Assembly: GCA_003152795.1 (NCBI GenBank)
Contig: PMBA01000226.1
Span: 1-10,230, forward strand
DNA from: Acidobacteriaceae bacterium
Lineage (GTDB): Bacteria > Acidobacteriota > Terriglobia > Terriglobales > Acidobacteriaceae
Reading direction: 5' to 3'
Length of the DNA stretch: 10,230 bases
A program made the translations under genes and the position numbers. The stretch's first letter is position 1. Each line of letters opens with the position of its first letter. Shown piece after piece: positions 1-10,230 of the stretch. The notes beneath the pieces are model-generated. The model was given only the letters and a program-made list of their open reading frames with translations. It was not told where the DNA came from and made no database searches.

Positions 1-452
1 TGCTGGTCACGGGAGAGGATGAGACCGGGATTGGAGCCGCGAAGTCCTTAGTCCGTTTCGACAAGTGCCCGGGAAAGGATTACAGCGCCGCCCTGCAACA
101 GGACTTCGACGACGCCGCCCCCGATCAAGAACAGGAATTCCTGGGAAGCCTGAAATCCGAAGCCGCGGTACGCGTGGTTGCGTCCCCTCTGCTCGCCACT
201 TCGATTGCCCGCGTCAACGGCAATCCGCATGTGTTTCTTGCAAACTTTGCAGGGCTGCGAGGGGGAGTTAATCCCATCCAGATTCCGCAGACCGGCGTGC
301 AGGTCACGATATCTGGCGCGAAGAAAGGCCGCGGATTCTTCTTGCCGTTTCTCGGAGACTTGCAACCACTGGATGGAATTGTCAGTGCCAGTGGCGTTAC
401 CTACAACCTGCCGACGATTCAAAAGGGGGCAGTATTCTGGTATCAGCCTTGA
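1..452 (+). CDS. 3' end of an unrecognised protein (partial)
   Basis: Reading from position 3, the frame is open from the window edge to a TGA at 450-452, giving the last 149 residues of a protein whose start lies upstream. I do not recognise the family. The first half is mixed and fairly acidic. The second half is rich in Gly, Val, Ile and aromatic residues (HVFLANFAG, GVQVTISGAKKG, GAVFWYQP), the pattern of a small C-terminal beta-sandwich such as those ending many glycoside hydrolases or amidotransferase-like proteins; that comparison is only a guess from texture. No cysteine or metal-binding motif is visible. It runs in the same direction as the respiratory genes but is separated from them by 326 non-coding bases with their own apparent operator, so it probably belongs to a different transcription unit. 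Confidence 0.6.
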   Translation, partial: LVTGEDETGIGAAKSLVRFDKCPGKDYSAALQQDFDDAAPDQEQEFLGSLKSEAAVRVVASPLLATSIARVNGNPHVFLANFAGLRGGVNPIQIPQTGVQVTISGAKKGRGFFLPFLGDLQPLDGIVSASGVTYNLPTIQKGAVFWYQP

Positions 453-645
453 TGAAGGAACCGCCTACTTCGTGCGACGTGCTTTGAAGATTCAAACCCG
501 CAATCAATCGGCATGTTGTGCGCTGAGGTCGGGGTCGGTTTTCTGATTCGATTGGCTTGCAGTTGGCCCGTGATTCCGTGACTCGCTCTTGACCACCAAC
601 CCGGCCATCTTCGCAAAACCTCACGCGAGAGAGACTTTCCGCCGA

Positions 646-672
646 TGTGATTTCGATCACACTTACTTGTGA
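646..672. promoter_or_regulatory. CRP/FNR-family operator, perfect palindrome plus a phased third half-site
   Basis: Positions 646-661 read TGTGA-N6-TCACA, an exact match to the E. coli CRP consensus core. The inner bases TGAT-N4-ATCA also resemble the FNR/FixK type core, whose half-site would be TTGAT, so each half differs from FNR by one base. A third half-site TGTGA follows at 668-672, again after six bases, so three half-sites lie at 11-bp steps on one face of the helix. The site lies about 120 bp before the first start codon. If transcription begins near 715-718, the palindrome is centred about 61-65 bp upstream, the class I activator position. Which regulator binds, and whether the signal is cAMP, oxygen or NO, cannot be told from the sequence. 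Confidence 0.6.
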
Positions 673-705
673 CGCATGCCGCAGAAAAGTTTCGAAGGCG
701 AACCC

Positions 706-711
706 GATAAT
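706..711 (+). promoter_or_regulatory. Candidate -10 element
   Basis: GATAAT differs from the sigma-70 -10 consensus by one base. No good -35 hexamer is found 16-18 bp upstream, as is common for activator-dependent promoters. The element is placed suitably relative to the palindrome at 646-661. Support is weak, because single six-base matches occur by chance. Confidence 0.25.
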
Positions 712-765
712 GGCCGACAACTCAGGCCTGTAAATGAAGCGAATAATTCTGCCAACTCGACCGCC

Positions 766-772
766 AAGGAGG
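766..772 (+). promoter_or_regulatory. Strong Shine-Dalgarno deciding the start at 779
   Basis: AAGGAGG lies six bases before the ATG at 779. The in-frame ATG at 734 has no comparable site and would place 15 charged and polar residues ahead of an otherwise standard signal peptide. The 779 start is therefore preferred. Confidence 0.8.
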
Positions 773-778
773 CGATCC

Positions 779-2308
779 ATGGATATGCGGCATCCGGTGT
801 CCCTGTTTGTTGTTTTTGTCCTCACGATCATATTGCTGGCCGGAAGCAGTTATGCGATCCCGGCCTTTTCACGCCAGTACGGCACGTCGTGCAGCACGTG
901 TCACGTGGACTTTCCCAAGCTCAACGACTTTGGCAAGGCTTTCAAGGACGCCGGGTTCAAGTTTCCGAAGGGGGATGAGGACTTTATCAAGGTTCCCCCA
1001 TTAATGCTGGGAGCGCCGGCGCAAAAAGATATGTGGCCGCATGTTATCTTTCCGGGAACCATCCCGGGAATGCCGCAGATAGGCCTGCGCTACAACCAGT
1101 TTTTCCAATACACCAGCGGCAACGCCAACAACTACTACCAGCCTTCGGGGGCGCCGGGGACGCCACTGTCGCCGACGATTCCGCGCACCGACTTTGAGGC
1201 GGGGCTGTTCAGCATCTTCATGGCGGGGAATTTTGGCAGCGATATCGCGTTCTGGGTGGACGACGACATCAGTGTCTCGGGGCTCAACGCCAATGGCGCT
1301 CTCGGCGACGGTTATCTGCGTTTTGGCAACATTGGGCGCTTCCTGAAGTTGCCGACCGACGCGCTTGCCTTGAGGGTGGGCCAGTTCGAACTTGACTTGC
1401 CTTTTACGCAGGCCCGCTCGATCAATATCAGCACCTACGATATTTACACTCAGGCGAACATCGGGTCGAGCAGTCAGAATGTGAACAACCAGTTTTCCAT
1501 GGCCGATGCTGTACAGGGAGTTGAATTCAGTGGAGGCCATCAGTATGGCGGCTACCACTACTCGCTGGCAGTGGTGAACCAGAACACGGGCGGAGGAACC
1601 GTCTCGTCGGCTACCAATGTTTCCTCTCCGGGGGGATTCTTTTCCGACTCTAACTACAAAGACATCTACGGCCGGTTTTCGTACCGCTTCAACCTGGAAA
1701 AGGACCCGGCGAGCCGGCACGATGTTCAGGCAGCAGGCGCCACCGGACCGCGCGACCATACCTACCTGAACCTGGGCACGTTCTTCTTCAAAGGTCGTTC
1801 GGTGCAGCGGTTCAACGGATTGACCAGTGGAGGCGCAGCCGATGTGCTGACCGCGCGCGAACCTTTCTACCGGTTTGGCGGGGACTTCAGCTTTAACTAT
1901 CGTACATTCAATCTGTTCGGTCTCTACATGTATGGCCACGATCAGGATCTTCTGTTGAACTCTGGCTTTACTGGATTTGTGAGTGGTACTCCTGCCAAGT
2001 TCAATGGTGGCTTCCTGGAGGCCGACTATCTCGCGCTGCCCTGGCTGATGGCAATCTTGCGCTACGACCACGTGCAATCGACCGCGGATTTTCTTAACCA
2101 GGCTGACTCGGGAAATTATTACTCGCCGGTGGGGACCACGCGTGACCGGGTCACACCCGGTGTTCAATTCCTGATTCACGCTAATATCAAGGCGTCGTTT
2201 GAATACCAGTTCCGTCCACAACAAGCCCTCACTTATGACGCGAATGGGAAGGCGTTGAATCCGTTCCGTACGAACACGGCCACCGGCGCCTTGGAATTTG
2301 TATACTAG
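779..2308 (+). CDS. Exported monoheme c-type cytochrome fused to an outer-membrane-type beta-barrel
   Basis: The product has 509 residues from the ATG that follows a strong Shine-Dalgarno. Residues 1-26 form a signal peptide with a likely cut after SYA. Close behind is one heme c motif, CSTCH at residues 38-42, followed by a conserved-looking stretch (FPKLNDFGKAF). The remaining roughly 430 residues have no transmembrane helix; they show alternating hydrophobic strands, many Tyr/Phe/Gly/Asn residues and strand patterns such as YRFNL, FNYRTFNLFG and ASFEYQF, and the chain ends in FVY. This is the look of an outer-membrane barrel of perhaps 14-18 strands. Only one heme is present, so it is not a multiheme conduit by itself. 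A likely role is electron passage or docking at the outer membrane together with the periplasmic carriers encoded downstream. The cytochrome motif is certain; the barrel is inferred from composition and the C-terminal aromatic residue. Confidence 0.82.
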   Translation: MDMRHPVSLFVVFVLTIILLAGSSYAIPAFSRQYGTSCSTCHVDFPKLNDFGKAFKDAGFKFPKGDEDFIKVPPLMLGAPAQKDMWPHVIFPGTIPGMPQIGLRYNQFFQYTSGNANNYYQPSGAPGTPLSPTIPRTDFEAGLFSIFMAGNFGSDIAFWVDDDISVSGLNANGALGDGYLRFGNIGRFLKLPTDALALRVGQFELDLPFTQARSINISTYDIYTQANIGSSSQNVNNQFSMADAVQGVEFSGGHQYGGYHYSLAVVNQNTGGGTVSSATNVSSPGGFFSDSNYKDIYGRFSYRFNLEKDPASRHDVQAAGATGPRDHTYLNLGTFFFKGRSVQRFNGLTSGGAADVLTAREPFYRFGGDFSFNYRTFNLFGLYMYGHDQDLLLNSGFTGFVSGTPAKFNGGFLEADYLALPWLMAILRYDHVQSTADFLNQADSGNYYSPVGTTRDRVTPGVQFLIHANIKASFEYQFRPQQALTYDANGKALNPFRTNTATGALEFVY

Positions 2309-2359
2309 GGGCTGGAACTTCTTACAACGAGTATGGCAAAGGGAAATTAAGGAGAGAGA

Positions 2360-2947
2360 ATGAAACGCACTTTGACGATGATGATGGTGATGGCAGTGAT
2401 AGCGATGATGAGCCTGGCAGCCAGCGCGGGCACAATCAGTGGAAAAGTCTCCGGCGTGAGCGGCGAATCTGTGGTCTATGTCGACGCTATTGCCGGAAAG
2501 ACTTTCCCGGCTCCGACCGCGAAGCCGGTCATCGACCAGAAAGGCCTGGTGTTCCAGCCGCACATTGTGGTGGTGGAGCAGGGCACGACGGTCGAGTTCT
2601 TAAACAGTGACAAAGTCGCTCACAACGTGTTCTGGCCGTCCGTGGGCGGCAACAAGAAACTCACCCACAACCTGGGCACCTGGCCGCAGGGCGAAAAGCG
2701 TCCGTTCAAGTTTGACAATGCGGGCGCAGTGCCGCTGCTGTGCAATGTGCACCCGGAGATGGCCGGCTATGTCGTCGTATCGCCGACCCCGTATTTTGCT
2801 CTGACCGACAAATCAGGCGAATACAAGATCGAGAACGTTCCCGACGGCAGCTACACGGTAACCGCGTGGCATGAAGGCGCCAAGAACCAATCCAAGCCGG
2901 TCGCTGTGGCGGGCGACAGCAAAGCGGACTTCACACTGAGCAAATAG
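2360..2947 (+). CDS. Exported cupredoxin (plastocyanin-like) with carboxypeptidase-regulatory-like tail
   Basis: This 195-residue protein starts at ATG 2360 with GGAGAGA at 2351-2357. A signal peptide covers residues 1-23 (cut after ASA). The cupredoxin domain spans about residues 60-141. His88 in AHNVFW and the cluster Cys128, His131, Met134 (CNVHPEM) supply the four ligands of a type 1 blue copper site, with the short C-x2-H-x2-M loop. It has no CuA motif (C-x3-C), so it is not a cytochrome oxidase subunit II. Residues 145-195 (FALTDKSGEYKIENVPDGSY) resemble a transthyretin/carboxypeptidase-regulatory fold. It is probably a periplasmic one-electron carrier. Relatives are often labelled methylamine utilization protein, but nothing here supports that function. 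It lies 51 bp after the barrel gene and is followed by a hairpin element that may limit read-through. Confidence 0.85.
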   Translation: MKRTLTMMMVMAVIAMMSLAASAGTISGKVSGVSGESVVYVDAIAGKTFPAPTAKPVIDQKGLVFQPHIVVVEQGTTVEFLNSDKVAHNVFWPSVGGNKKLTHNLGTWPQGEKRPFKFDNAGAVPLLCNVHPEMAGYVVVSPTPYFALTDKSGEYKIENVPDGSYTVTAWHEGAKNQSKPVAVAGDSKADFTLSK

Positions 2948-2955
2948 TCAAGAAA

Positions 2956-3019
2956 TGGAGTGACGGGCGTCTCGCCCGTCCAGTTTTATAACGGCCGGGC
3001 GGGAACGCCCGGCGCTCCA
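2956..3019. repeat. REP/REPIN-like cloverleaf element between operon segments
   Basis: Three nested inverted repeats fill this gap. Hairpin 1 at 2962-2980 has a perfect 8-bp stem (GACGGGCG/CGCCCGTC) with a 3-base loop. Hairpin 2 at 2994-3013 has a perfect 8-bp stem (GCCGGGCG/CGCCCGGC) with loop GGAA. An outer stem joins TGGAGT at 2956-2961 to GCTCCA at 3014-3019 (one T-G wobble). The whole can fold as two arms closed by a stem. The paired GC-rich palindromes resemble dispersed REP/REPIN elements. Hairpin 1 is followed after three bases by TTTT, so it could also act as a weak terminator or mRNA-end protector between the cupredoxin gene and the oxidoreductase gene. No second copy occurs in this window. 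Confidence 0.65.
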
Positions 3020-3042
3020 CTTATCTACTGGGGACTGTTATC

Positions 3043-5154
3043 GTGCTGAAGCGCTTCAAAGACAAGAAAGTGGACAGGGATTGGTTGAACACCAACTTTC
3101 CCTGCATGATGGCTTGTCCGGCCCACACGAACGCAGGCCGGTACGTCGAACTCATTGCGGAAGGGCGATTTGAAGAAGCTTACAAGTTTGCCCGCGATCC
3201 GAATCCGCTGGCGAGTATCTGCGGCCGGGTTTGCGCCCATCCCTGTGAAACAGCCTGTCGCCGAGGCGAAATCGATCGCCCCATCGCCATCCGGGCTCTC
3301 AAGCGTTTTCTGACGGAGCGGCACGGGCCGGAATCGAAGCGTCCTCTGGACATCTATGCCGGACGGGCCCAGACCAAGCTGCCCTTCAAGGTTGCCGTGG
3401 TCGGCGGCGGCCCGGTAGGACTCTCCGCGGCGCATGACCTGGCTCTGATGGGCTACTCGGTCACGATCTTCGAATCCGCTCCGGTGGCTGGCGGAATGCT
3501 ATACCTGGGCATTCCCGAATATCGCTTGCCGCGCGACGTGGTGGAAGCGCAAGTGCGAGAGATTCTTGCCACGGGCGATATTACGTTGAAACTCAACCAG
3601 ACAGCGGGACGGGACTTCATGGTTTCCGACCTGCGCCATCAGGGCTTCGACGCGGTGCTGATCGCCGTGGGCGCGCACCGCAGCCGCGACCTCACCATCC
3701 CCGGCGTTGACCTGGATGGCGTCTACAAGGGGATCGATTTCCTGCTCAACGTGAATCTCGGCTATAAGTTCACCATCGGCAAGAAGGTAATTGTGATTGG
3801 CGGCGGCAATGTGGCGATGGACGTGGCCCGTTCGGCGGCTCGGGAAGTGGTCCGGCAGCATGTTGGTGGAGTCGAAGACCTCGAGCCTTCGCTGGAGAGT
3901 GTAAGCGCCGTGGCCACGAAAGAGATGGTGGACGTATCTCTGTCTGCCCTGCGCATGGGCGCACAGGAAGTGCATCTGGTCTGCCTGGAAAAGCGCGAAG
4001 AGATGCCGGCGGCACTGGAAGAGATCGAAGAGGCCGAGACGGAAGGCATCGTCATGCATCCCGGCCTGGGCCCGAAGCGCATGATCGGCAAGAATGGCAG
4101 AGTTGTGGCGCTCGAGACGCTCGACACGAAATGGGTTTTCGATCAGAACAAGCGCTTCAACCCGGCGTTCTACGAGGGCAGTGAACGGGAACTGGAGTGC
4201 GACACCGTGATTATGGCCGTTGGCCAGGCGCCGCGACTGGACTTCCTCAAACCCGACGACGGCGTGGATTTGTCTCCCCGTGGGCTGATCGCGGTGAACC
4301 CGCAAACGCTGATGACCTCGGCAAACGGAATTTTTGCCGGCGGCGACTGCGTTTTCGGCCCGCGTCTGATCATCGATAGCGTGGCCGACGGCAAGCGCGC
4401 GGCGGTCGGCATTGATGAGTTCGTGCGCACACACCAATGGCGTGAAGCTGTCGCCGGAGCGGATGGCCGCGAGGATACAGACGGACCACCGCTGTCAATT
4501 GGTAGCGTGGCCCAGGGCAGACGCGCCGCGGACAGCATTAGTGGGCTCATGGCGGGCGAGGGGCACCCGGAACCGTTGATCGAGATCGAGGTAATGAAGC
4601 GCTACAGCATGCCGCTGGATTTGTTGGACCTGGCGCGCCCGCCCATCCCCATGCTGCCGCTGGAGCGCCGTACCGGAGTAACAGAAGTCGAAGTCGGCTA
4701 CGACGCGCAGTCGGCGATGGAAGAAGCCCAGCGCTGTCTGCATTGCTGGGTGAACACGGTGTTTGAAGGCACCCCGGAAGACGGGAACATGTGCATCCTG
4801 TGCGGCGGTTGCGTCGATGTGTGCCCAGAGAACTGCCTGCAGTTGGTTTCCCTGGATCGCATTCAGTTCGAGCCCGAAACCGTCGAGCGGATTCGGGAGC
4901 ACCAGGAATTGTTTGGCGTGGAACTCGACGAGGTGGCGGCCGACGAACTCGGCGTCGTGACCGGGTCCGCCATGCTGAAGGACGAAACGCGGTGTATTCG
5001 CTGCGGGCTCTGCGCCGCGCGCTGTCCCGTCGGCACCATTACGATGGAGTCGTACAACCTGGTTTCGGCGGAGCCGACCGGGTTAATTTCGGTGGAAGCC
5101 ATCGATGGACCGCTCCGACCACAATCGCCAGCAACGGCTGGAGGCCCGAAATAA
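3043..5154 (+). CDS. Multi-cluster Fe-S/FAD NAD(P)-linked oxidoreductase (GltD/NfnB/DPYD-like) with C-terminal 2x[4Fe-4S] domain
   Basis: This 703-residue protein has a GTG start with GGGGA about eight bases upstream. Residues 15-90 form the Fe-S domain found in GltD, NfnB and dihydropyrimidine dehydrogenase, with C21, C25 and C60, C64, C68, C72 (three successive C-x3-C steps). An FAD dinucleotide fold begins at GGGPVG (121-126), and the second FAD motif is FAGGD (431-435). An NAD(P) fold begins at GGGNVA (253-258). Residues 565-568 add a C-x2-C pair. A bacterial ferredoxin domain follows, with C584, C587, C590, C594 and C651, C654, C657, C661. No signal peptide or membrane helix is present, so it is cytoplasmic. 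It is longer than GltD, and no glutamate synthase large subunit is nearby. Lying 32 bp before the Rieske gene, it is likely a peripheral subunit passing electrons between NAD(P)(H) and the quinone-reactive complex. The direction is unknown. An internal duplication at residues 439-461 and 481-503 is unusual. Confidence 0.88.
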   Translation: MLKRFKDKKVDRDWLNTNFPCMMACPAHTNAGRYVELIAEGRFEEAYKFARDPNPLASICGRVCAHPCETACRRGEIDRPIAIRALKRFLTERHGPESKRPLDIYAGRAQTKLPFKVAVVGGGPVGLSAAHDLALMGYSVTIFESAPVAGGMLYLGIPEYRLPRDVVEAQVREILATGDITLKLNQTAGRDFMVSDLRHQGFDAVLIAVGAHRSRDLTIPGVDLDGVYKGIDFLLNVNLGYKFTIGKKVIVIGGGNVAMDVARSAAREVVRQHVGGVEDLEPSLESVSAVATKEMVDVSLSALRMGAQEVHLVCLEKREEMPAALEEIEEAETEGIVMHPGLGPKRMIGKNGRVVALETLDTKWVFDQNKRFNPAFYEGSERELECDTVIMAVGQAPRLDFLKPDDGVDLSPRGLIAVNPQTLMTSANGIFAGGDCVFGPRLIIDSVADGKRAAVGIDEFVRTHQWREAVAGADGREDTDGPPLSIGSVAQGRRAADSISGLMAGEGHPEPLIEIEVMKRYSMPLDLLDLARPPIPMLPLERRTGVTEVEVGYDAQSAMEEAQRCLHCWVNTVFEGTPEDGNMCILCGGCVDVCPENCLQLVSLDRIQFEPETVERIREHQELFGVELDEVAADELGVVTGSAMLKDETRCIRCGLCAARCPVGTITMESYNLVSAEPTGLISVEAIDGPLRPQSPATAGGPK
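4357..4551 (+). repeat. In-frame internal duplication within the oxidoreductase gene
   Basis: Bases 4357-4425 and 4483-4551, exactly 126 bp (42 codons) apart, match at 48 of 69 positions by hand alignment. The encoded segments share GP-L-I-SVA-G-RAA---I spacing (12 of 23 residues identical: IDSVADGKRAA versus IGSVAQGRRAA). The first copy follows the FAD motif as usual in the GltD family; the second sits in the linker before the ferredoxin domain. Confidence 0.55.
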
Positions 5155-5186
5155 CGTTCCGAGGCAGGTTTTCGAGGTAAAGCGTA

Positions 5187-5705
5187 ATGTCCGAAGAAAA
5201 GAAAATCACGCCGGCGGAAAATGGCAACGAGTTCAACCGCCGCGCCTTTTTCGTGAAGCTGGGATTGGGATCGCTGAGTATCGCCGCGGCCGGCACGGCG
5301 GCGTTTTCGTACCAGTTTCTCTCGCCGAATGTTTTGTACGAGCCCTCACCCATCGTCAATGCGGGCAGGCCGGAAAATTATGCGGTCGATTCCGTGACCC
5401 TGGACGTGAACTCGGGAATTTATCTCATCCATGCCCAGGAAGGATTTTTTGCGCTGAGCGCCATCTGCACCCATCTTGGATGCCTGACGGCATGGAAGCC
5501 GGAACTAGGGGAGCACGGGATCATCGCGTGCCCTTGTCATGGCAGCAAATTTTACGTTCGCGATACCGGGAAGACCCCGGGAGAGAAGATTGAGGGGCCG
5601 GCCCCCAAGCCGCTACCCTGGCTGCAGACGTCACTGAGCGATGAGGGAGACTTGATGGTGGATCGTTCCAAACAAATTGATCCGATGAAGTTCCTGAGGG
5701 TGTGA
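5187..5705 (+). CDS. Rieske [2Fe-2S] iron-sulfur protein, Tat-targeted
   Basis: This 172-residue protein is close to the usual length for bacterial Rieske subunits. The N-terminus carries a twin-arginine motif (NRRAFF, residues 17-22) followed by a hydrophobic helix at about 25-45, which normally stays as the membrane anchor after Tat export of the folded cluster. Cluster ligands are C94 and H96 (CTHLGC) and C115 and H118 (CPCHGS); C99 and C117 would form the stabilising disulfide. Ser120 of the hydrogen-bond network is present, but the residue two places on, Tyr in mitochondrial and b6f proteins, is Phe122. In studied Rieske proteins losing that Tyr hydroxyl lowers the midpoint potential, which would suit menaquinol. 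GAGG at 5174-5177 precedes the ATG. The gene ends 2 bp before the preferred start of cytochrome b. Confidence 0.95.
5696..5700 (+). promoter_or_regulatory. Shine-Dalgarno inside the Rieske 3' end, favouring GTG 5708
   Basis: GAGGG lies seven bases before the GTG at 5708 but only one base before the other in-frame GTG at 5702, which overlaps the Rieske stop. Spacing therefore favours 5708. The two choices differ by two residues. Confidence 0.5.
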
Positions 5706-5707
5706 GC

Positions 5708-6502
5708 GTGGCGAAGACAATCACGAACTACTTCGAGGAGTTACGCGGCACGCGGGTCTGGCGGTCGGTGTTCCGCAGCGGGACCGGATCCAGTCCCTTG
5801 CACCGGGCGCTGGCTGTGCAGCAGAACGTATTCCTGCACCTTTTCTCCACCAAGGTGCGGACCCGAATGCTCAGTTTCAGTACGACATGGTACCTGGGCA
5901 CCCTGACCCTGGGAACATTCTTAATACTGGTGGGCACAGGCATTCCCCTGATGTTCTATTACCATCCCTCGGTGCCGCAGGCGTATGCGGACACTAAGGA
6001 TCTACAGTTCGTCGTCTCTTCCGGCTTATTCCTGCGCAACCTGCACCGCTGGTCCGCGCATGCCATGGTTTTCCTGGTGTTCGCGCATATGTTCAAAGTG
6101 TTTTACCGCGGCGCCTATCGTCCGCCGCGCGAGTTCAATTGGGTCATCGGAGTCATCCTGCTGTTGATTACGCTGCTGCTCAGTTACACGGGCTACCTGT
6201 TGCCCTGGGACCAGTTGGCTTTCTGGGCGATCACGGTGGGTTCTAACATCGCTTCCGCGGTGCCGGTCATGGGCAACAAAGTGCACTTCCTCATGCTGGG
6301 TGGCAATGTCGTGAACGCCAACGCACTGCTGCGTTTTTACGTGTTGCACTGCATGATTCTGCCGCTGGTCGCAATACTTTTTGTCGCCATACACTTCTGG
6401 CGCATTCGCAAAGATGGCGGACTCTATGCTCACCAAAGCGAGCCCAAAACGGTGGCTGCTCAATCGGTTCCGGCCGTCACGAAGGGGGTCCCAGTCCAAT
6501 GA
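5708..6502 (+). CDS. Cytochrome b6-like subunit (N-terminal half of split cytochrome b)
   Basis: This 264-residue integral membrane protein has four hydrophobic helices matching helices A-D of cytochrome b. Heme ligands are H113 and H127 in helix B (HRWSAH...FAHMF) and H214 and H229 in helix D. The helix D pair is 15 apart, the b6f-type spacing, whereas bc1 uses 14. Conserved features include MFYYHP after helix A, the PPREFNW loop and the [13 protein letters not shown] segment near the quinol oxidation site. At the position of the b6f cysteine that holds heme cn there is Tyr62, so no covalent third heme is expected. An N-terminal extension of about 50 residues precedes helix A. It forms the membrane core with the Rieske protein and the next gene, to which it is coupled by an ATGA overlap at 6499-6502. 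GTG 5702 is an alternative start. Confidence 0.93.
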
Positions 6503-7215
6503 GTGATTCAAAGAGCGATCCGAAAGATTTCATCGCCGGCATGGACTCGAATGCTCGCAGGTCGCCGACTCGTGTGGTTTTCGTCACGCGACGAACGTCC
6601 GCGCAGGTCAAAGTTGCGGACGAAGATCAGGTGCAGACGTATCCGGAACTCCTCTTCCGCGCCGTTGTCGCCATCGAGGTACTGGCGATCGCATTAGTCG
6701 GTATGGCTCTTCTGTTCAACGCACCGCTGGAAGGCATTGCCGATCCTTCGCATACGCCCAACCCCGCCAAGGCGCCCTGGTACTTTCTTGGATTGCAGGA
6801 AATGCTCCATTACTTCCCCCCCGTTGTAGCGGGTGTGCTGGTTCCGGGCCTGGTGGTGATGGCGCTGATTGTGATTCCGTATTTCAACATCAACATTGAG
6901 GCCGAAGGTTTGTTCCTCAAGGATCGCAAGCGCCGAGTACCTATTTTCTACGCGGCCGTGGCTGCGCTCTGTGTGTTCTTGCTGTCGTTTGATGTGTATG
7001 TGGCGCTAGGACCGACCCTGATCGTTGCCGCGTTCATGCTTCTGGCGGTGCAAAGTTCTCCGCACTCGACATCAGCCTTCCGGCGTGGTCTGGCTGCGAA
7101 ACCGCTTTCTTTCTGGATCATGACCTGGTTTCTGTTCGAACTCACGGTGCTCACGGCGGTAGGCACTTTCTTCCGCGGCCCAGGCTGGTCCTGGGTGTTG
7201 CCCTGGAGGAGCTGA
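6499..7215 (+). CDS. Subunit IV-like C-terminal half of split cytochrome b
   Basis: This 238-residue protein is longer than b6f subunit IV (about 160 residues). Its ATG overlaps the cytochrome b6 stop (ATGA), implying translational coupling and equal synthesis. A polar N-terminus of about 50 residues is followed by hydrophobic segments at roughly 52-74, 108-130, 147-164, 168-185 and 205-224, so there are probably one or two more helices than the usual three. The Qo-site segment reads [15 protein letters not shown], with A92-P93-W94-Y95-F96 in place of PEWY or PDWY; the acidic residue used for proton release from quinol is missing. The C-terminus ends in [11 protein letters not shown], a Trp-rich tail at the membrane surface. 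The role is completion of the quinol oxidation pocket. Confidence 0.9.
7205..7210 (+). promoter_or_regulatory. Shine-Dalgarno supporting a TTG start at 7217
   Basis: GGAGGA within the end of the subunit IV gene lies six bases before TTG 7217. No in-frame ATG or GTG exists close by before the membrane anchor, so the rare TTG start is well supported. It begins two bases after the preceding TGA. Confidence 0.7.
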
Positions 7216-7216
7216 C

Positions 7217-9289
7217 TTGCAATCATCATCGCAATCAAAGAAGGACTCGTTGTCTTCCCTGTGGCAGACGTTATTCGGCCATCCGGTGCGCGCTTTTGGC
7301 GTGGTCAGCCTGCTATTGCTGCTCTTTCTCGCAATCGCTCCCGCCAAGAACCACTTCAGCGAATGGCGCCACTATCAGAAGCAGTATCTGGCGTTAATTC
7401 GCAGCCGTGGAGACGCGGTCACGCTCGAGCGCCGTTTTCACGATCACGATGGCATCCAGCAGATATGGCTTCCGCAGTTGGGAGTCGTAGACCGCTGCAC
7501 CAGTTGCCACGCCGGTTTGAAAGAAGCCGGCCTCGCCGATGTCAGCAGCCAGCCGTTTCGCAAGCATCCGGTAATCCCTCACACGCTTGACCAGTATGGC
7601 TGCGTGATGTGTCACCGGGGGCAAGGTCCCGCGACCACGGTCGAGGAAGCCCATCGCAGCACCTTGGCCTGGGAGCAACCGATCTTGCCGGCACGGTACG
7701 TGCAATCTTCCTGCGGCCAATGCCATCGTGCTCCACTCACCGGGACACCGCAGCTGAACCTGGGACGCAATCTACTGGGGCGATACGGTTGCGTGCATTG
7801 TCACACGATCAAGTTGCCGGATGGCAGCGCGATCAAGCCGACTGACGATCCGCCTTCGCTGGAGCACGTTGCCGACAAAACCACGCGGGAATGGATCTAT
7901 GCGTGGCTGAAGGATCCTCAGGCATATGCGGTCACCGCGACCATGCCGAATTTCAAATTGAGCGATCCGGACGCGCGCGATGTTTCGGCTTTCCTGACCG
8001 CCAGCAGCACGCCCCTTGCGGGTGACACCGCCCCAGTTCCGCAAGATCAGAAGGCGCCTGATCCGACGGCTGGAGCCAGCTTGTATGGCGAATCATTCTG
8101 CGCCTCCTGCCATGCCGTGCAGAACGCTGCGGGGAACGTGGTGGGCGGCGATGTCGGACCGGAACTAACTCGCGTCGGCACTAAAGTGAAACCGGAATGG
8201 TTGCGGGCATGGTTGCGCAACCCGCGGGTCTACGATTCGGGAACGGCCATGCCGCACTACCGTCTCAGCGATCCGCAACTCTCGCTGCTGACTGCCTTCC
8301 TCGGAAACAAAACCGATTCCGATCTACTGGCCAATGTCCATCTCGACGCCGCCACGCCGGAGCAGATTGCGCACGGCAAGCTTCTGGTGACCGAGTACGG
8401 CTGCGCTTCCTGCCACGCGATCAACGGCATCAAGAAGCCCGACAACTTCGCTCCGGAATTGACGCGGGTCGGGAGCAAGCCGCTCACGCAGATTGTTTTC
8501 CTGCCTGGGATGACCCACGCGATTCCGGATTACATTGCGGCCAAAATCCGGCAACCGCGCTCGTTTGGATCGGCGTTGAAGATGCCGCAGTTCAGCCTTG
8601 CGCCAGCGCAGATTGATGCGTTGACGACCGCACTGCTCTCGCTGACGGACCGGGCGCATGACTTGCCGCTGGCATTGACTGTGCCGGCGAAACCGGCCTC
8701 GAATTACCAGCCCGCGGGTAAAGCTGGAACACTCATGTCGGACTTGGCCTGCTTCAGTTGCCACGCCATTAATGGCCGCGGCGGAGACATGGCTCCCGAC
8801 CTGACATGGGAAGGCAGTTCGGTGCAGCGGCCGTGGCTGCTGGCATTCTTGAAAAACCCTGGCACACTGCGACCGGCGTTGATCCGGCGCATGCCGAGGT
8901 TCAATCTCTCCGATGACGACGCGAAGGAACTCACCGACTACATCATGACCGCTTATCAGACTCCGGCATTCGACCGCGACTCGATGCCATCCGGCGGTTA
9001 TCCGCCGGCCCAGGTGGAGCAGGGGAAACAGCTTTTCTATTCCAAGTATGCCTGCCAGGGATGCCACATTGTCGATACGAAGGTGGACAAAGGATACGTT
9101 GGACCAACGCTAACGCAAGTCGGCTCGCGCCTGAATGCGGCGTGGGTCTACCACTGGCTGAAAGAGCCACAGACCATGCGGGCGGGCACCATCGAACCGA
9201 ACCGCAACATGACCGACGAAGATGCCCGCGCGCTGACCGCATTCCTGATGACGCAAAAGGGCTCCAGCAAGCAGGAGGCGAAGAAATGA
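7217..9289 (+). CDS. Membrane-anchored octaheme c-type cytochrome (three N-terminal hemes plus five tandem cytochrome c domains)
   Basis: The product has 690 residues, initiated at TTG. One hydrophobic helix at about 26-42 (no obvious cleavage site) anchors it, with the rest in the periplasm. Eight C-x2-C-H motifs are present at C94, C129, C166, C192, C295, C396, C512 and C613. The last five each head a class I-like domain of about 100 residues with a Met-Pro distal ligand (M243, M345, M456, M559) or a Met in NRNMTDED (M665). Shared phrases recur, such as PELTRVG, EW-AWL--P and MP-F-LSD. The first three hemes are closer together, lack such Met motifs and probably form a distinct His-rich module. 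Following the cytochrome b genes by two bases, it replaces cytochrome c1/f as likely electron acceptor from the Rieske centre, with a heme chain long enough to reach distant partners. A label of simple cytochrome c would understate it. Confidence 0.9.
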   Translation: MQSSSQSKKDSLSSLWQTLFGHPVRAFGVVSLLLLLFLAIAPAKNHFSEWRHYQKQYLALIRSRGDAVTLERRFHDHDGIQQIWLPQLGVVDRCTSCHAGLKEAGLADVSSQPFRKHPVIPHTLDQYGCVMCHRGQGPATTVEEAHRSTLAWEQPILPARYVQSSCGQCHRAPLTGTPQLNLGRNLLGRYGCVHCHTIKLPDGSAIKPTDDPPSLEHVADKTTREWIYAWLKDPQAYAVTATMPNFKLSDPDARDVSAFLTASSTPLAGDTAPVPQDQKAPDPTAGASLYGESFCASCHAVQNAAGNVVGGDVGPELTRVGTKVKPEWLRAWLRNPRVYDSGTAMPHYRLSDPQLSLLTAFLGNKTDSDLLANVHLDAATPEQIAHGKLLVTEYGCASCHAINGIKKPDNFAPELTRVGSKPLTQIVFLPGMTHAIPDYIAAKIRQPRSFGSALKMPQFSLAPAQIDALTTALLSLTDRAHDLPLALTVPAKPASNYQPAGKAGTLMSDLACFSCHAINGRGGDMAPDLTWEGSSVQRPWLLAFLKNPGTLRPALIRRMPRFNLSDDDAKELTDYIMTAYQTPAFDRDSMPSGGYPPAQVEQGKQLFYSKYACQGCHIVDTKVDKGYVGPTLTQVGSRLNAAWVYHWLKEPQTMRAGTIEPNRNMTDEDARALTAFLMTQKGSSKQEAKK
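9273..9278 (+). promoter_or_regulatory. Shine-Dalgarno for the lipoprotein cytochrome
   Basis: AGGAGG lies seven bases before ATG 9286 and ten before ATG 9289. This rules out the much longer open frame that extends back to 9061 inside the octaheme gene. Confidence 0.65.
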
Positions 9290-10023
9290 TGAACCGATGG
9301 CGGCGAACGTTCTTCGCAGCCTCTCTCATTCTGGTAAGTGCAGGCTGCACTCACAAGCCGGGAGCGGTCGCCGCTCTAAAGCCCACAGGGTTTGGCGCCG
9401 CGCTGGTGGAGTCCAGCGGCGGCAAGCAGATCGGCCCAACCGGCATGGTCCTCGCTCAGCCCCTCGTGGTGCAGGTCAATGATGAACAAGGGACGGCGGT
9501 CACCGGGGCGCTGGTCGAATTCAGCGGCCCCGCCGGGGCCAGCTTTGACCCACCGAGCGGCCTTACCGATTCCAGCGGACAGCTCAGCACGAACGTCGCT
9601 CTCGGCGGAACGGCAGGCCGTTATCAATTTGCCGCGCGCACATCCACGAAAGCTCAGAAATCAGTGGAACTGAAGATTGAAGAAATTGCCCTGGGATATC
9701 AGGAACAGGTAGGATTTCAGCTCGACAGCAAGTATTGCGCTCGCTGCCACGACCCCGAGTCCACGCCGGAACGTGTTTCCAATCACGACAATCTCGAAGT
9801 CAAGCCGCACCCCTTCACCGAGGGCGATACGCTCAACAAAATGAGCGATGCCGAACTGATCGCCATCATCGGTCACGGTGGTCCAGCCCTCAACAAGTCT
9901 GCATTGATGCCCCCGTACGGCTATACTCTCAGCAAGACAGAGATCGAGGCGCTGATTGCTTACATCCGCCTGATCTCCGATCCTCCCTATCATGCTTCCG
10001 GAATGGTCTATGCACAGAAGTAG
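9286..10023 (+). CDS. Lipoprotein with Ig-like region and C-terminal monoheme cytochrome c
   Basis: This 245-residue protein begins with ATG overlapping the octaheme stop by four bases (ATGA). The N-terminus is a basic, hydrophobic signal ending in SAGC; Cys21 is the probable lipidated residue, although Ser at -3 is less usual than Leu. Residues about 55-130 (PLVVQVNDEQGTAVTGALVE; DSSGQLSTNVALGG; GRYQFAA) resemble a bacterial Ig-like (Big-1/invasin) fold. Residues about 140-235 are a cytochrome c domain with CARCH at 151-155 and Met208 in ALMPPYG as the likely sixth ligand. The Ig-like region may act as a spacer holding the heme away from the lipid anchor. Co-translation with the octaheme cytochrome suggests they exchange electrons. 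Whether it sits in the inner or outer membrane cannot be told from the sequence. Confidence 0.85.
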   Translation: MMNRWRRTFFAASLILVSAGCTHKPGAVAALKPTGFGAALVESSGGKQIGPTGMVLAQPLVVQVNDEQGTAVTGALVEFSGPAGASFDPPSGLTDSSGQLSTNVALGGTAGRYQFAARTSTKAQKSVELKIEEIALGYQEQVGFQLDSKYCARCHDPESTPERVSNHDNLEVKPHPFTEGDTLNKMSDAELIAIIGHGGPALNKSALMPPYGYTLSKTEIEALIAYIRLISDPPYHASGMVYAQK

Positions 10024-10230
10024 GTCCGGTTGGCTCGGCCTGCTTCTTTTCGTCATCCTTTTCGTTTGCGTAACTGGCGCCTCGCTTGCTCAAGTTGTAT
10101 CGCCGGTGGAGATCAAAGATCCTTCATTGCGCGCTCTACAGCAGCAATACATGGACGATTTGAGCCGGGCGGCCCAGGACGTTCTGGCAATCCAGTTCGA
10201 TTATCCGTTTTACCTCAGCCGCAAACTCGA
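10010..10230 (+). CDS. Exported protein of unknown function (5' part, truncated by the window)
   Basis: An open frame begins at ATG 10010, overlapping the lipoprotein gene by 14 bases, and runs off the window edge after 73 complete codons. The N-terminus is a standard signal peptide (basic MHRSRS, hydrophobic stretch LGLLLFVILFVC, cut after SLA at about residue 27). The visible mature part is helical-looking (LRALQQQYMDDLSRAAQDVL) and then aromatic (FDYPFYLSRKL), with no heme motif so far. I do not recognise the family. The overlap and the shared export destination place it in the same operon. Confidence 0.7.
   Translation, partial: MHRSRSGWLGLLLFVILFVCVTGASLAQVVSPVEIKDPSLRALQQQYMDDLSRAAQDVLAIQFDYPFYLSRKL

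Follow-up and report, generated by a model that had tools for sequence, protein, structure and literature searches.

A Rieske/cytochrome b gene cluster of Acidobacteriota with a predicted NAD(H)-type flavoprotein and a Cyc2-like neighbor: a possible quinol-bifurcating respiratory module

Introduction

Which reaction is served by a Rieske/cytochrome b complex whose genes are accompanied by that of an iron-sulfur flavoprotein with binding domains for flavin adenine dinucleotide (FAD) and nicotinamide adenine dinucleotide (NAD)? This question is raised by a locus of an Acidobacteriaceae bacterium (assembly GCA_003152795.1 of 4.72 Mb, 82% complete). The window, i.e., the whole stretch of DNA analyzed, comprises bases 1-10230 of the 14,221-base contig PMBA01000226.1. 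An initial annotation had described a gene run for a flavoprotein, a Rieske protein, a split cytochrome b and an octaheme cytochrome c at 3043-9289, and domain and motif matches bore it out. The range was too narrow: the conserved run extends over eight genes from 734 to 10023 and also includes a Cyc2-like gene, a cupredoxin and an end cytochrome c.

The best reading of this locus is a quinol-bifurcating or reversible NAD-linked complex that feeds a chain from the periplasm to the outer membrane. As a whole, the view of a membrane-bound, NAD-linked, quinol-bifurcating respiratory module joined to the periplasm and the outer membrane is put forward tentatively, with a probability slightly short of even. 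Gene content and order, homology to complexes of anammox bacteria, the ligand residues, an NAD-type nucleotide site, the absence of a heme-cN cysteine and the Cyc2-like neighbor were observed directly.

Results

Gene Content of the Cluster

The cluster consists of the following genes.

734..2308, + strand: Cyc2-like fused monoheme cytochrome-porin, 524 amino acids, with an N-terminal hydrophobic segment and one CXXCH (motif comparison)
2360..2947, + strand: secreted type-1 copper cupredoxin with a C-terminal CarboxypepD_reg-like domain (Pfam Copper-bind 31.5 bits, CarboxypepD_reg 37.4 bits)
3043..5154, + strand: flavoprotein arm, predicted cytoplasmic (Fer4_20; Pyr_redox_2, i.e., a GltD/NfnB-like FAD/NAD domain; two C-terminal 4Fe-4S motifs)
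5187..5705, + strand: Rieske protein with a twin-arginine-like N terminus and CTHLGC...CPCHGSKF (Pfam; best PDB matches 9rk4 and 9rk3)
5702..6502, + strand: N-terminal half of cytochrome b, b6-type, with all four heme-b His present (profile match and alignments)
6499..7215, + strand: C-terminal half of cytochrome b, subunit IV-like, with the Qo motif at 6760-6801 (profile match and motif)
7217..9289, + strand: membrane-anchored octaheme c-type cytochrome with eight CXXCH (motif count, Pfam and hydropathy)
9289..10023, + strand: predicted lipoprotein (by eye) with a Big_1-like domain and a C-terminal monoheme cytochrome c (Pfam; kept in relatives)

From 3043 to 9289, neighboring genes overlap or are spaced by 1-32 nucleotides. 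None of the nine window proteins scanned matched a Pfam cytochrome c1 or f family, in line with the absence of c1/f stated initially; the remainder of the genome was not searched for cytochrome f. The octaheme cytochrome has a single anchor at its N terminus; three hemes lie in an N-terminal stretch that yielded c7/c3-like matches, and five domains of class I (Cytochrom_C) are present as well. Because of these class-I heme domains, it also matched the NCBIfam models of the actinobacterial bc1 diheme cytochrome c QcrC (59 of 200 bits, below the cut-off) and of SoxX (127 bits summed over five stretches, cut-off 61). In the subunit IV-like half, four segments exceeded the hydropathy threshold and a fifth membrane helix was recognized by eye. 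Upstream of the cluster, at 3-452, lies the tail of an open reading frame truncated by the window start, which had no Pfam or NCBIfam match.

Conservation across Acidobacteriota

Among 396 genomes of the phylum, the flavoprotein was matched in 127 (E value 1e-60) and the cytochrome b in 252 (E value 1e-12), with many weaker flavoprotein matches spanning part of the query only. Linkage was scored for the best 79 flavoprotein places listed, with the window left out and some genomes present twice, as a cytochrome b on the same strand within 9 kilobases (kb). This type of cytochrome b lay near 75 of these 79 close homologues (flavoprotein upstream in 51, downstream in 24); the other four lacked a cytochrome b among the listed places, which do not include lower-ranked cytochrome b places. 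The closest named flavoprotein homologues belonged to Terriglobales bacteria and Candidatus Sulfotelmatobacter.

The order porin-cytochrome, cupredoxin, flavoprotein, Rieske protein, N- and C-terminal cytochrome b halves, octaheme cytochrome and cytochrome c was found by tblastn in L045-L051, L054, L056 and L058-L073, with flavoprotein identities from 78% to 47%. Several of the porin and end-cytochrome matches in these loci were weak and two porins were cut by contig ends; the loci fetched were the best matches, i.e., a non-random sample. Gene order conserved at about 47% flavoprotein identity goes far beyond chance. The expectation that the order would recur in relatives was thus confirmed by tblastn and by the linkage in 75 of 79 places. 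Window-type clusters, defined by a flavoprotein and a cupredoxin upstream and an octaheme cytochrome of at least 350 bits, numbered 32 and were spread over 14 family groups of the phylum.

The flavoprotein was not a constant companion of this cytochrome b. Of 96 acidobacterial loci, i.e., those from genomes assigned to the phylum of the window, 26 were flavoprotein-free, with no same-strand flavoprotein found within 9 kb (L212 among them is cut upstream), and L164 possesses the other seven cluster genes without a detected flavoprotein. Where present, the flavoprotein gene lies upstream, between the cytochrome b halves (some anammox loci) or 6 kb downstream. The latter layout, with a Rieske protein, a fused cytochrome b, a multiheme cytochrome c and the flavoprotein about 6 kb downstream, was seen in L077, L078, L163, L165-L167 and L169-L174; in L077, the multiheme cytochrome has seven CXXCH, and membrane and Fe-S proteins (244 and 473 amino acids) surround the flavoprotein.

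In a tree built rapidly from 114 cytochrome b sequences, at least seven changes were needed to account for flavoprotein presence and four for the window type. One clade comprised 31 of 34 window-type sequences together with six of another layout, and the flavoprotein-linked anammox sequences grouped among flavoprotein-free acidobacterial ones, not beside the window type. The arm seems to have been repeatedly gained or lost on a single cytochrome b family, as judged from this tree.

Kinship with Anammox Complexes

When the window Rieske protein was compared with all PDB sequences, the top two matches were 9rk4 and 9rk3, the Rieske domains of those two Kuenenia complexes that include an NAD(P) oxidoreductase (PMC12954380). 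Based on their Ser-Tyr and Ser-Phe pairs, 9rk4 probably represents Kuste4569 and 9rk3 Kustd1480. The window protein carries Ser-Phe, as does Kustd1480, for which +335 mV was measured (PMC12954380). The cited portion of that work reports that the subunits of the Kuenenia complex comigrate, and reduction of NAD(P)+ by quinol is the function proposed there (PMC12954380).

A scan with the 9rk4 piece yielded 38 planctomycete loci, many carrying anammox genus names. In 31 of them, the genes for the Rieske protein, the flavoprotein and the two cytochrome b halves were consecutive, in most cases with a cytochrome of five or six hemes and one of eight hemes behind them; the remaining seven were cut or had a Rieske protein without parts of the set. 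Scalindua arabica (L104) carries an octaheme cytochrome related to that of the window (203 bits) in place of the usual cytochromes. The run of Scalindua rubra (L226) encodes a cupredoxin, a Rieske protein, the N-terminal cytochrome b half, a flavoprotein, the C-terminal half, an octaheme cytochrome (370 bits to that of the window) and a monoheme cytochrome c, and is equivalent to the gene set of the window minus the porin.

The anammox-type gene set, with b6-like cytochrome b, subunit IV, Rieske protein, oxidoreductase and multiheme cytochrome c in one cluster, is present in the window. Shared with the Kustd1480-1485 and Kuste4569-4574 complexes are the b6-like split cytochrome b with its subunit IV-like half, the Rieske protein, the Fer4_20/GltD/Fe-S flavoprotein, a multiheme cytochrome c that replaces c1/f, the His, Arg and Lys of a modeled interface heme, and an xPWY Qo motif. 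The likeness to anammox complexes noted initially is homology, to judge from the Rieske matches to PDB entries and the shared gene sets. However, the window differs by the Cyc2-like gene in the cluster, the lack of an HAO-like neighbor, the gene order and an acidic NAD(H)-type site. What appears to be new is a form of the complex proposed for anammox bacteria in which the arm is of the NAD(H) type, a Cyc2-like partner is added and the heme-cN cysteine is missing.

Residues of Cytochrome b

AlphaFold3 models described for the Kuenenia complexes place an additional heme b at the interface of two monomers, held by His43 and close to Arg247 in Kuste4571, or with His62, Arg266 and Lys267 in Kustd1481 (PMC12954380). 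His43 and Arg247 were numbered identically in Kuenenia hertensis (WLHLHP, RVRKDGG), and a single offset of 4 yielded His62, Arg266 and Lys267 in relatives of the Kustd1481 type. The window equivalents are His46 (5837-5839) and Arg236/Lys237 (6407-6412). His46 was present in all 70 flavoprotein-linked acidobacterial sequences and in all 34 readable flavoprotein-linked anammox sequences (35 in total, one cut); Arg236 occurred in 67 and Lys237 in 70 of the acidobacterial ones. Regarding the flavoprotein side, Arg550 of Kustd1483 is probably the Arg of CIRCG, which is present as Arg653 in the window (approximate numbering).

The position of the heme-cN Cys of b6 is occupied by Tyr64 in the window. 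This Cys was found in none of the 70 flavoprotein-linked acidobacterial sequences versus 34 of 34 readable anammox sequences. Its loss as a result of the arm was considered and rejected, since it was also absent from 23 of the 26 flavoprotein-free acidobacterial sequences. For the published anammox scheme, heme cN and quinone reduction at this heme are a difficulty (PMC12954380). The Qo motif of the window has Pro where bc1 has Glu. This xPWY motif was found in 69 of 70 flavoprotein-linked and 26 of 26 flavoprotein-free acidobacterial sequences and in 38 of 39 flavoprotein-linked anammox sequences, counts that include four anammox places twice; it was not found in three bc1-like anammox complexes.

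Nucleotide Site of the Flavoprotein

At the tip of the nucleotide site, the flavoprotein carries the acidic Glu316 (3988-3990). An acidic residue at this position of the Rossmann fold normally favors NAD(H). Leu/Ile-Glu was found in all 65 scored acidobacterial flavoproteins (of 70 linked ones), whereas Arg-Arg prevailed in anammox flavoproteins (32 of 35, with Leu-Glu in 3 of 35). Arg-Arg also occurs in NfnB-type PDB proteins and in a GltD-like protein of the same genome (L009); a second GltD of this genome (L010) did not align at the site. The nucleotide is therefore quite probably NAD(H) and not NADP(H), as predicted from these residues. An arm inside the cell that reacts with NAD(P)(H) had been assumed; the NAD-type flavoprotein, which lacks any hydrophobic segment by hydropathy, stood, and the NADP(H) part gave way to the prediction of NAD(H).

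Residues 464-503 (4432-4551) amount to about 40 residues more than in relatives of 661 residues and resemble a second copy of the GPRLIIDSVADGKRAA stretch before them (GPPLSIGSVAQGRRAA); lengths of 703-734 amino acids also occur among relatives.

The Cyc2-like Gene

Cyc2 has been defined by AXPXFAR[Q/K][T/Y], CXXCH, PXL and a length of at least 365 amino acids in the cited part of Keffer 2021 (PMC8406198). At 854-922, the window motif reads AIPAFSRQY-GTS-CSTCH-VDF-PKL, i.e., with a single substitution, Ser for Ala. The gene product resembles Cyc2 in its N-terminal hydrophobic segment, AxPxF(A/S)R(Q/K)(T/Y), CXXCH, PxL, length and porin-like C-terminal part, but differs in this Ser and in adjoining an NAD-linked Rieske/cytochrome b complex, and iron oxidation is putative. 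A porin domain of 16 strands is a further hallmark of Cyc2. The AlphaFold2 model of the window protein, with a mean predicted local distance difference test (pLDDT) score of 53, was used for a coarse porin match only: the best Foldseek match was OprP, and OprO, which is named as a structural relative of Cyc2 (Keffer 2021, PMC8406198), ranked 15. The relaxed motif had no match in shuffled translations (22 million residues).

A Cyc2-like gene was present in 28 of the 32 window-type clusters (17 with the strict and 11 with the relaxed motif), and the other four stop at a contig edge. Among 58 acidobacterial loci with an upstream flavoprotein, 30 contained it, 15 did not and 13 were cut. It occurred in 3 of 26 flavoprotein-free acidobacterial loci and in none of the 12 with the flavoprotein 6 kb downstream, two of which end less than 5.4 kb upstream. 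In L052, L053 and L055, the Cyc2-like gene lies downstream.

A second run of the same genome (L231; G000:C127, 2922-8809 and beyond) encodes a Cyc2-like protein with the strict motif, a diheme cytochrome c, a cupredoxin and CoxB-A-C; its heme-copper oxidase shows CuA and HPEVY motifs. For this genome only, the run looks like a downhill branch, as read from its genes. Of the 28 window-type genomes searched, 3 encode a relative that matches this second Cyc2-like protein over nearly its full length, and in one of the three, cytochrome c oxidase (COX) motifs were seen nearby (in the stretch fetched). A fixed two-branch system of Cyc2-COX and Cyc2-NAD was rejected based on these counts.

Overall, the genome had two COX1 matches and two NuoF matches. 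One NuoF match lies in an apparent complex I operon, the other next to genes of a [NiFe]-hydrogenase. At this second place (L233; G000:C428, 8016-13231), NuoE/NuoF-like proteins adjoin apparent small and large [NiFe]-hydrogenase subunits, likely an NAD-linked hydrogenase. RuBisCO was not matched in the 82% complete genome; other carbon-fixation routes were not searched.

A Flavoprotein-free Paralogue in the Same Genome

A second complex of this genome (L044; G000:C176, about 8500-12700) comprises a Rieske protein, a fused cytochrome b, an octaheme cytochrome and a cytochrome c, with about 50-57% identity to the window, and has no flavoprotein. It fell within the window-type clade of the cytochrome b tree (Shimodaira-Hasegawa-like approximate likelihood ratio test value of 100 for a 13-sequence set). 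Its cytochrome b retained the four heme-b His but was changed at 28 of 128 sites invariant in 12 window-type relatives, and His46, Arg236 and Lys237 were lost. With 19 of 37 sites on the side that we take to be cytoplasmic from b6 topology versus 9 of 91 elsewhere (p=1.1e-6), the changes were unevenly distributed. This pattern fits a partner that may have been lost on the cytoplasmic face.

Comparison with Other Known Systems

The split cytochrome b and the 15-residue His spacing in helix D are shared with cytochrome b6f, the Qo motif of which is PEWY. The window complex differs from it in xPWY, the missing heme-cN Cys, the extra flavoprotein and the lack of a cytochrome f family match among its nine proteins. 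Its cytochrome b halves had ExtP and ExtQ of the Geobacter Ext cluster as top NCBIfam matches and the octaheme cytochrome was matched by ExtS, but all three matches stayed below the curated cut-offs (253 of 290, 58 of 150 and 88 of 100 bits, respectively). The text consulted on the Geobacter bc cluster GSU2930-2937 names no flavoprotein (PMC2825233). The window flavoprotein resembles NfnB/GltD in its Fer4_20, FAD and nucleotide domains and in its best PDB matches, but has Leu-Glu instead of Arg-Arg at the nucleotide site and extra C-terminal clusters. No NfnA-type domain was found among the nine scanned window proteins; the contig remainder and the genome were not scanned for NfnA. Among the matches listed in the literature searched, no report of such a complex in Acidobacteriota was found, and an earlier mention is possible.

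Discussion

In the mechanism proposed here, an anchored octaheme cytochrome would be attached to a b6-type split cytochrome b and the Rieske protein on the outside, and an Fe-S flavoprotein that reacts with NAD(H) would dock from the cytoplasm. The module would be extended by the cupredoxin, the lipoprotein cytochrome and the Cyc2-like cytochrome-porin in the outer membrane. It is very likely that the parts form one physical complex. Menaquinol would be split at the Qo site, and we consider bifurcation there marginally favored. The first electron would pass from the Rieske cluster via the octaheme chain to high-potential periplasmic carriers. The second would pass via hemes bP and bN, an interface heme b bound by His46 of two monomers, the Fe-S clusters of the flavoprotein and FAD to NAD+. 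Since no heme cN is predicted, bN would hand electrons directly to the arm. A net electron flow to NAD+, and not from NADH, is a tentative assignment to which we would give rather less than an even chance. It is reasonably likely that the Cyc2-like protein belongs to this electron path.

With potentials of -70 mV for menaquinone, -320 mV for NAD and about +300 mV for the Rieske cluster (PMC12954380), simple arithmetic makes bifurcation to NAD+ favorable given an acceptor well above +180 mV, and more so under membrane potential. Possible acceptors are oxygen, through COX, and Fe(III) where the soil is acid. The reverse reaction, in which NADH and a high-potential electron reduce menaquinone, is close to equilibrium.

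One alternative is confurcation, i.e., an uphill entry in which menaquinone would be reduced at Qo by a low-potential electron from NADH together with a high-potential periplasmic electron. The donor of the latter, Fe(II) or another one, would deliver electrons via the Cyc2-like protein, the cupredoxin, the octaheme cytochrome and the Rieske protein, membrane potential would draw electrons from bN to bP, and reversed complex I would return NADH. The Cyc2-like gene in all 28 uncut window-type clusters, the second run with its putative downhill branch and the average of the half-reactions, which by arithmetic on the published values (PMC12954380) lies close to the menaquinone potential, speak for it. 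However, the missing RuBisCO match leaves the autotrophy route without a sign in the 82% complete genome, and autotrophic iron oxidation was rejected for this reason. Moreover, the second Cyc2-like protein has relatives in just 3 of 28 window-type genomes, with COX motifs nearby in one. The cited portion of a survey of peatland Acidobacteria genomes, including Sulfotelmatobacter, describes no dissimilatory iron genes, with the exception of a single genome that carries a putative metal reductase (PMC6018796), which counts against an iron role for the Cyc2-like protein; iron oxidation here is putative. Confurcation is unlikely.

Equally unlikely is that the flavoprotein is a mere neighbor, i.e., a soluble NADH oxidoreductase co-expressed with a Rieske/cytochrome b/octaheme complex that runs an ordinary Q cycle. 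In favor of this, many acidobacterial complexes have no detected flavoprotein (26 of 96 loci; in L164, the other seven genes are kept), His46 is retained in flavoprotein-free complexes, and the flavoprotein position varies among loci. Against this stand the linkage to this cytochrome b of 75 of 79 close flavoprotein homologues, its persistence in two phyla despite differing gene orders, and the comigration of subunits in Kuenenia (PMC12954380).

Still less likely is an NADH dehydrogenase that sends electrons by way of the arm and the hemes b either to quinone or to the octaheme chain and out through the outer membrane without bifurcation: the NAD-type site, the adjoining porin-cytochrome and cupredoxin and the missing cN cysteine suit it, but the retained Rieske protein and the conserved Qo motif would stand idle, an apparent complex I operon is present, and the energy of NADH would be wasted, as was argued for Kuenenia (PMC12954380).

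Several observations weigh against the preferred reading of an NAD-linked, quinol-bifurcating module. The apparent complex I operon with NuoF makes an extra NAD route unneeded. At first sight, His46 was a perfect marker of the flavoprotein arm; it was rejected as such, since 25 of 26 flavoprotein-free acidobacterial sequences carry it, and likewise Arg236 and Lys237. The three residues are probably shared family features and no proof of a docked arm. Arg511 of Kuste4570, a proposed heme contact, aligns with Gly589 of the window flavoprotein. The AlphaFold2 model of the flavoprotein was poor (pLDDT of 51) and was not used. In the paralogue L044, the branch is so long that the tree program deems its placement unsure, and the cytoplasmic segments were drawn after the changes of this single case were known. 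Applied to 16 control sequences, the comparison gave p values between 0.007 and 0.50, of which three (0.007, 0.014 and 0.021) were under 0.05. Finally, a terminator-like perfect-stem hairpin with a T-rich tail at 2962-2980, between the cupredoxin and flavoprotein genes, may split the Cyc2/cupredoxin pair from the complex genes in this genome. A conserved terminator at this position was rejected, since the intergenic stretches of 17 relatives contained no hairpin followed by a T-rich tail.

Taken further, the locus would be one operon that links the outer membrane to NAD(H): the Cyc2-like protein, the cupredoxin and the octaheme cytochrome would trade electrons with an extracellular metal couple, the Rieske/cytochrome b complex without heme cN would tie this couple to NADH by quinone bifurcation or confurcation, and in this genome the second Cyc2-cupredoxin-oxidase run would be paired with it as the downhill branch to oxygen. 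This extension is speculative and is held with low confidence.

Anammox bacteria grow slowly and are not available in ordinary pure culture. A Rieske/cytochrome b complex that makes NAD(P)H has been discussed for these bacteria. Since its relatives occur across 14 family groups of a phylum found in soil, easier organisms come within reach of a search for it. In the acidobacterial form, there is no cysteine for heme cN, the cofactor whose potential was an awkward step of the anammox scheme, and this form may therefore offer a cleaner test. A steady pairing with the Cyc2-like protein would connect a marker family of iron oxidation to NAD(H), and both questions are testable in a single organism.

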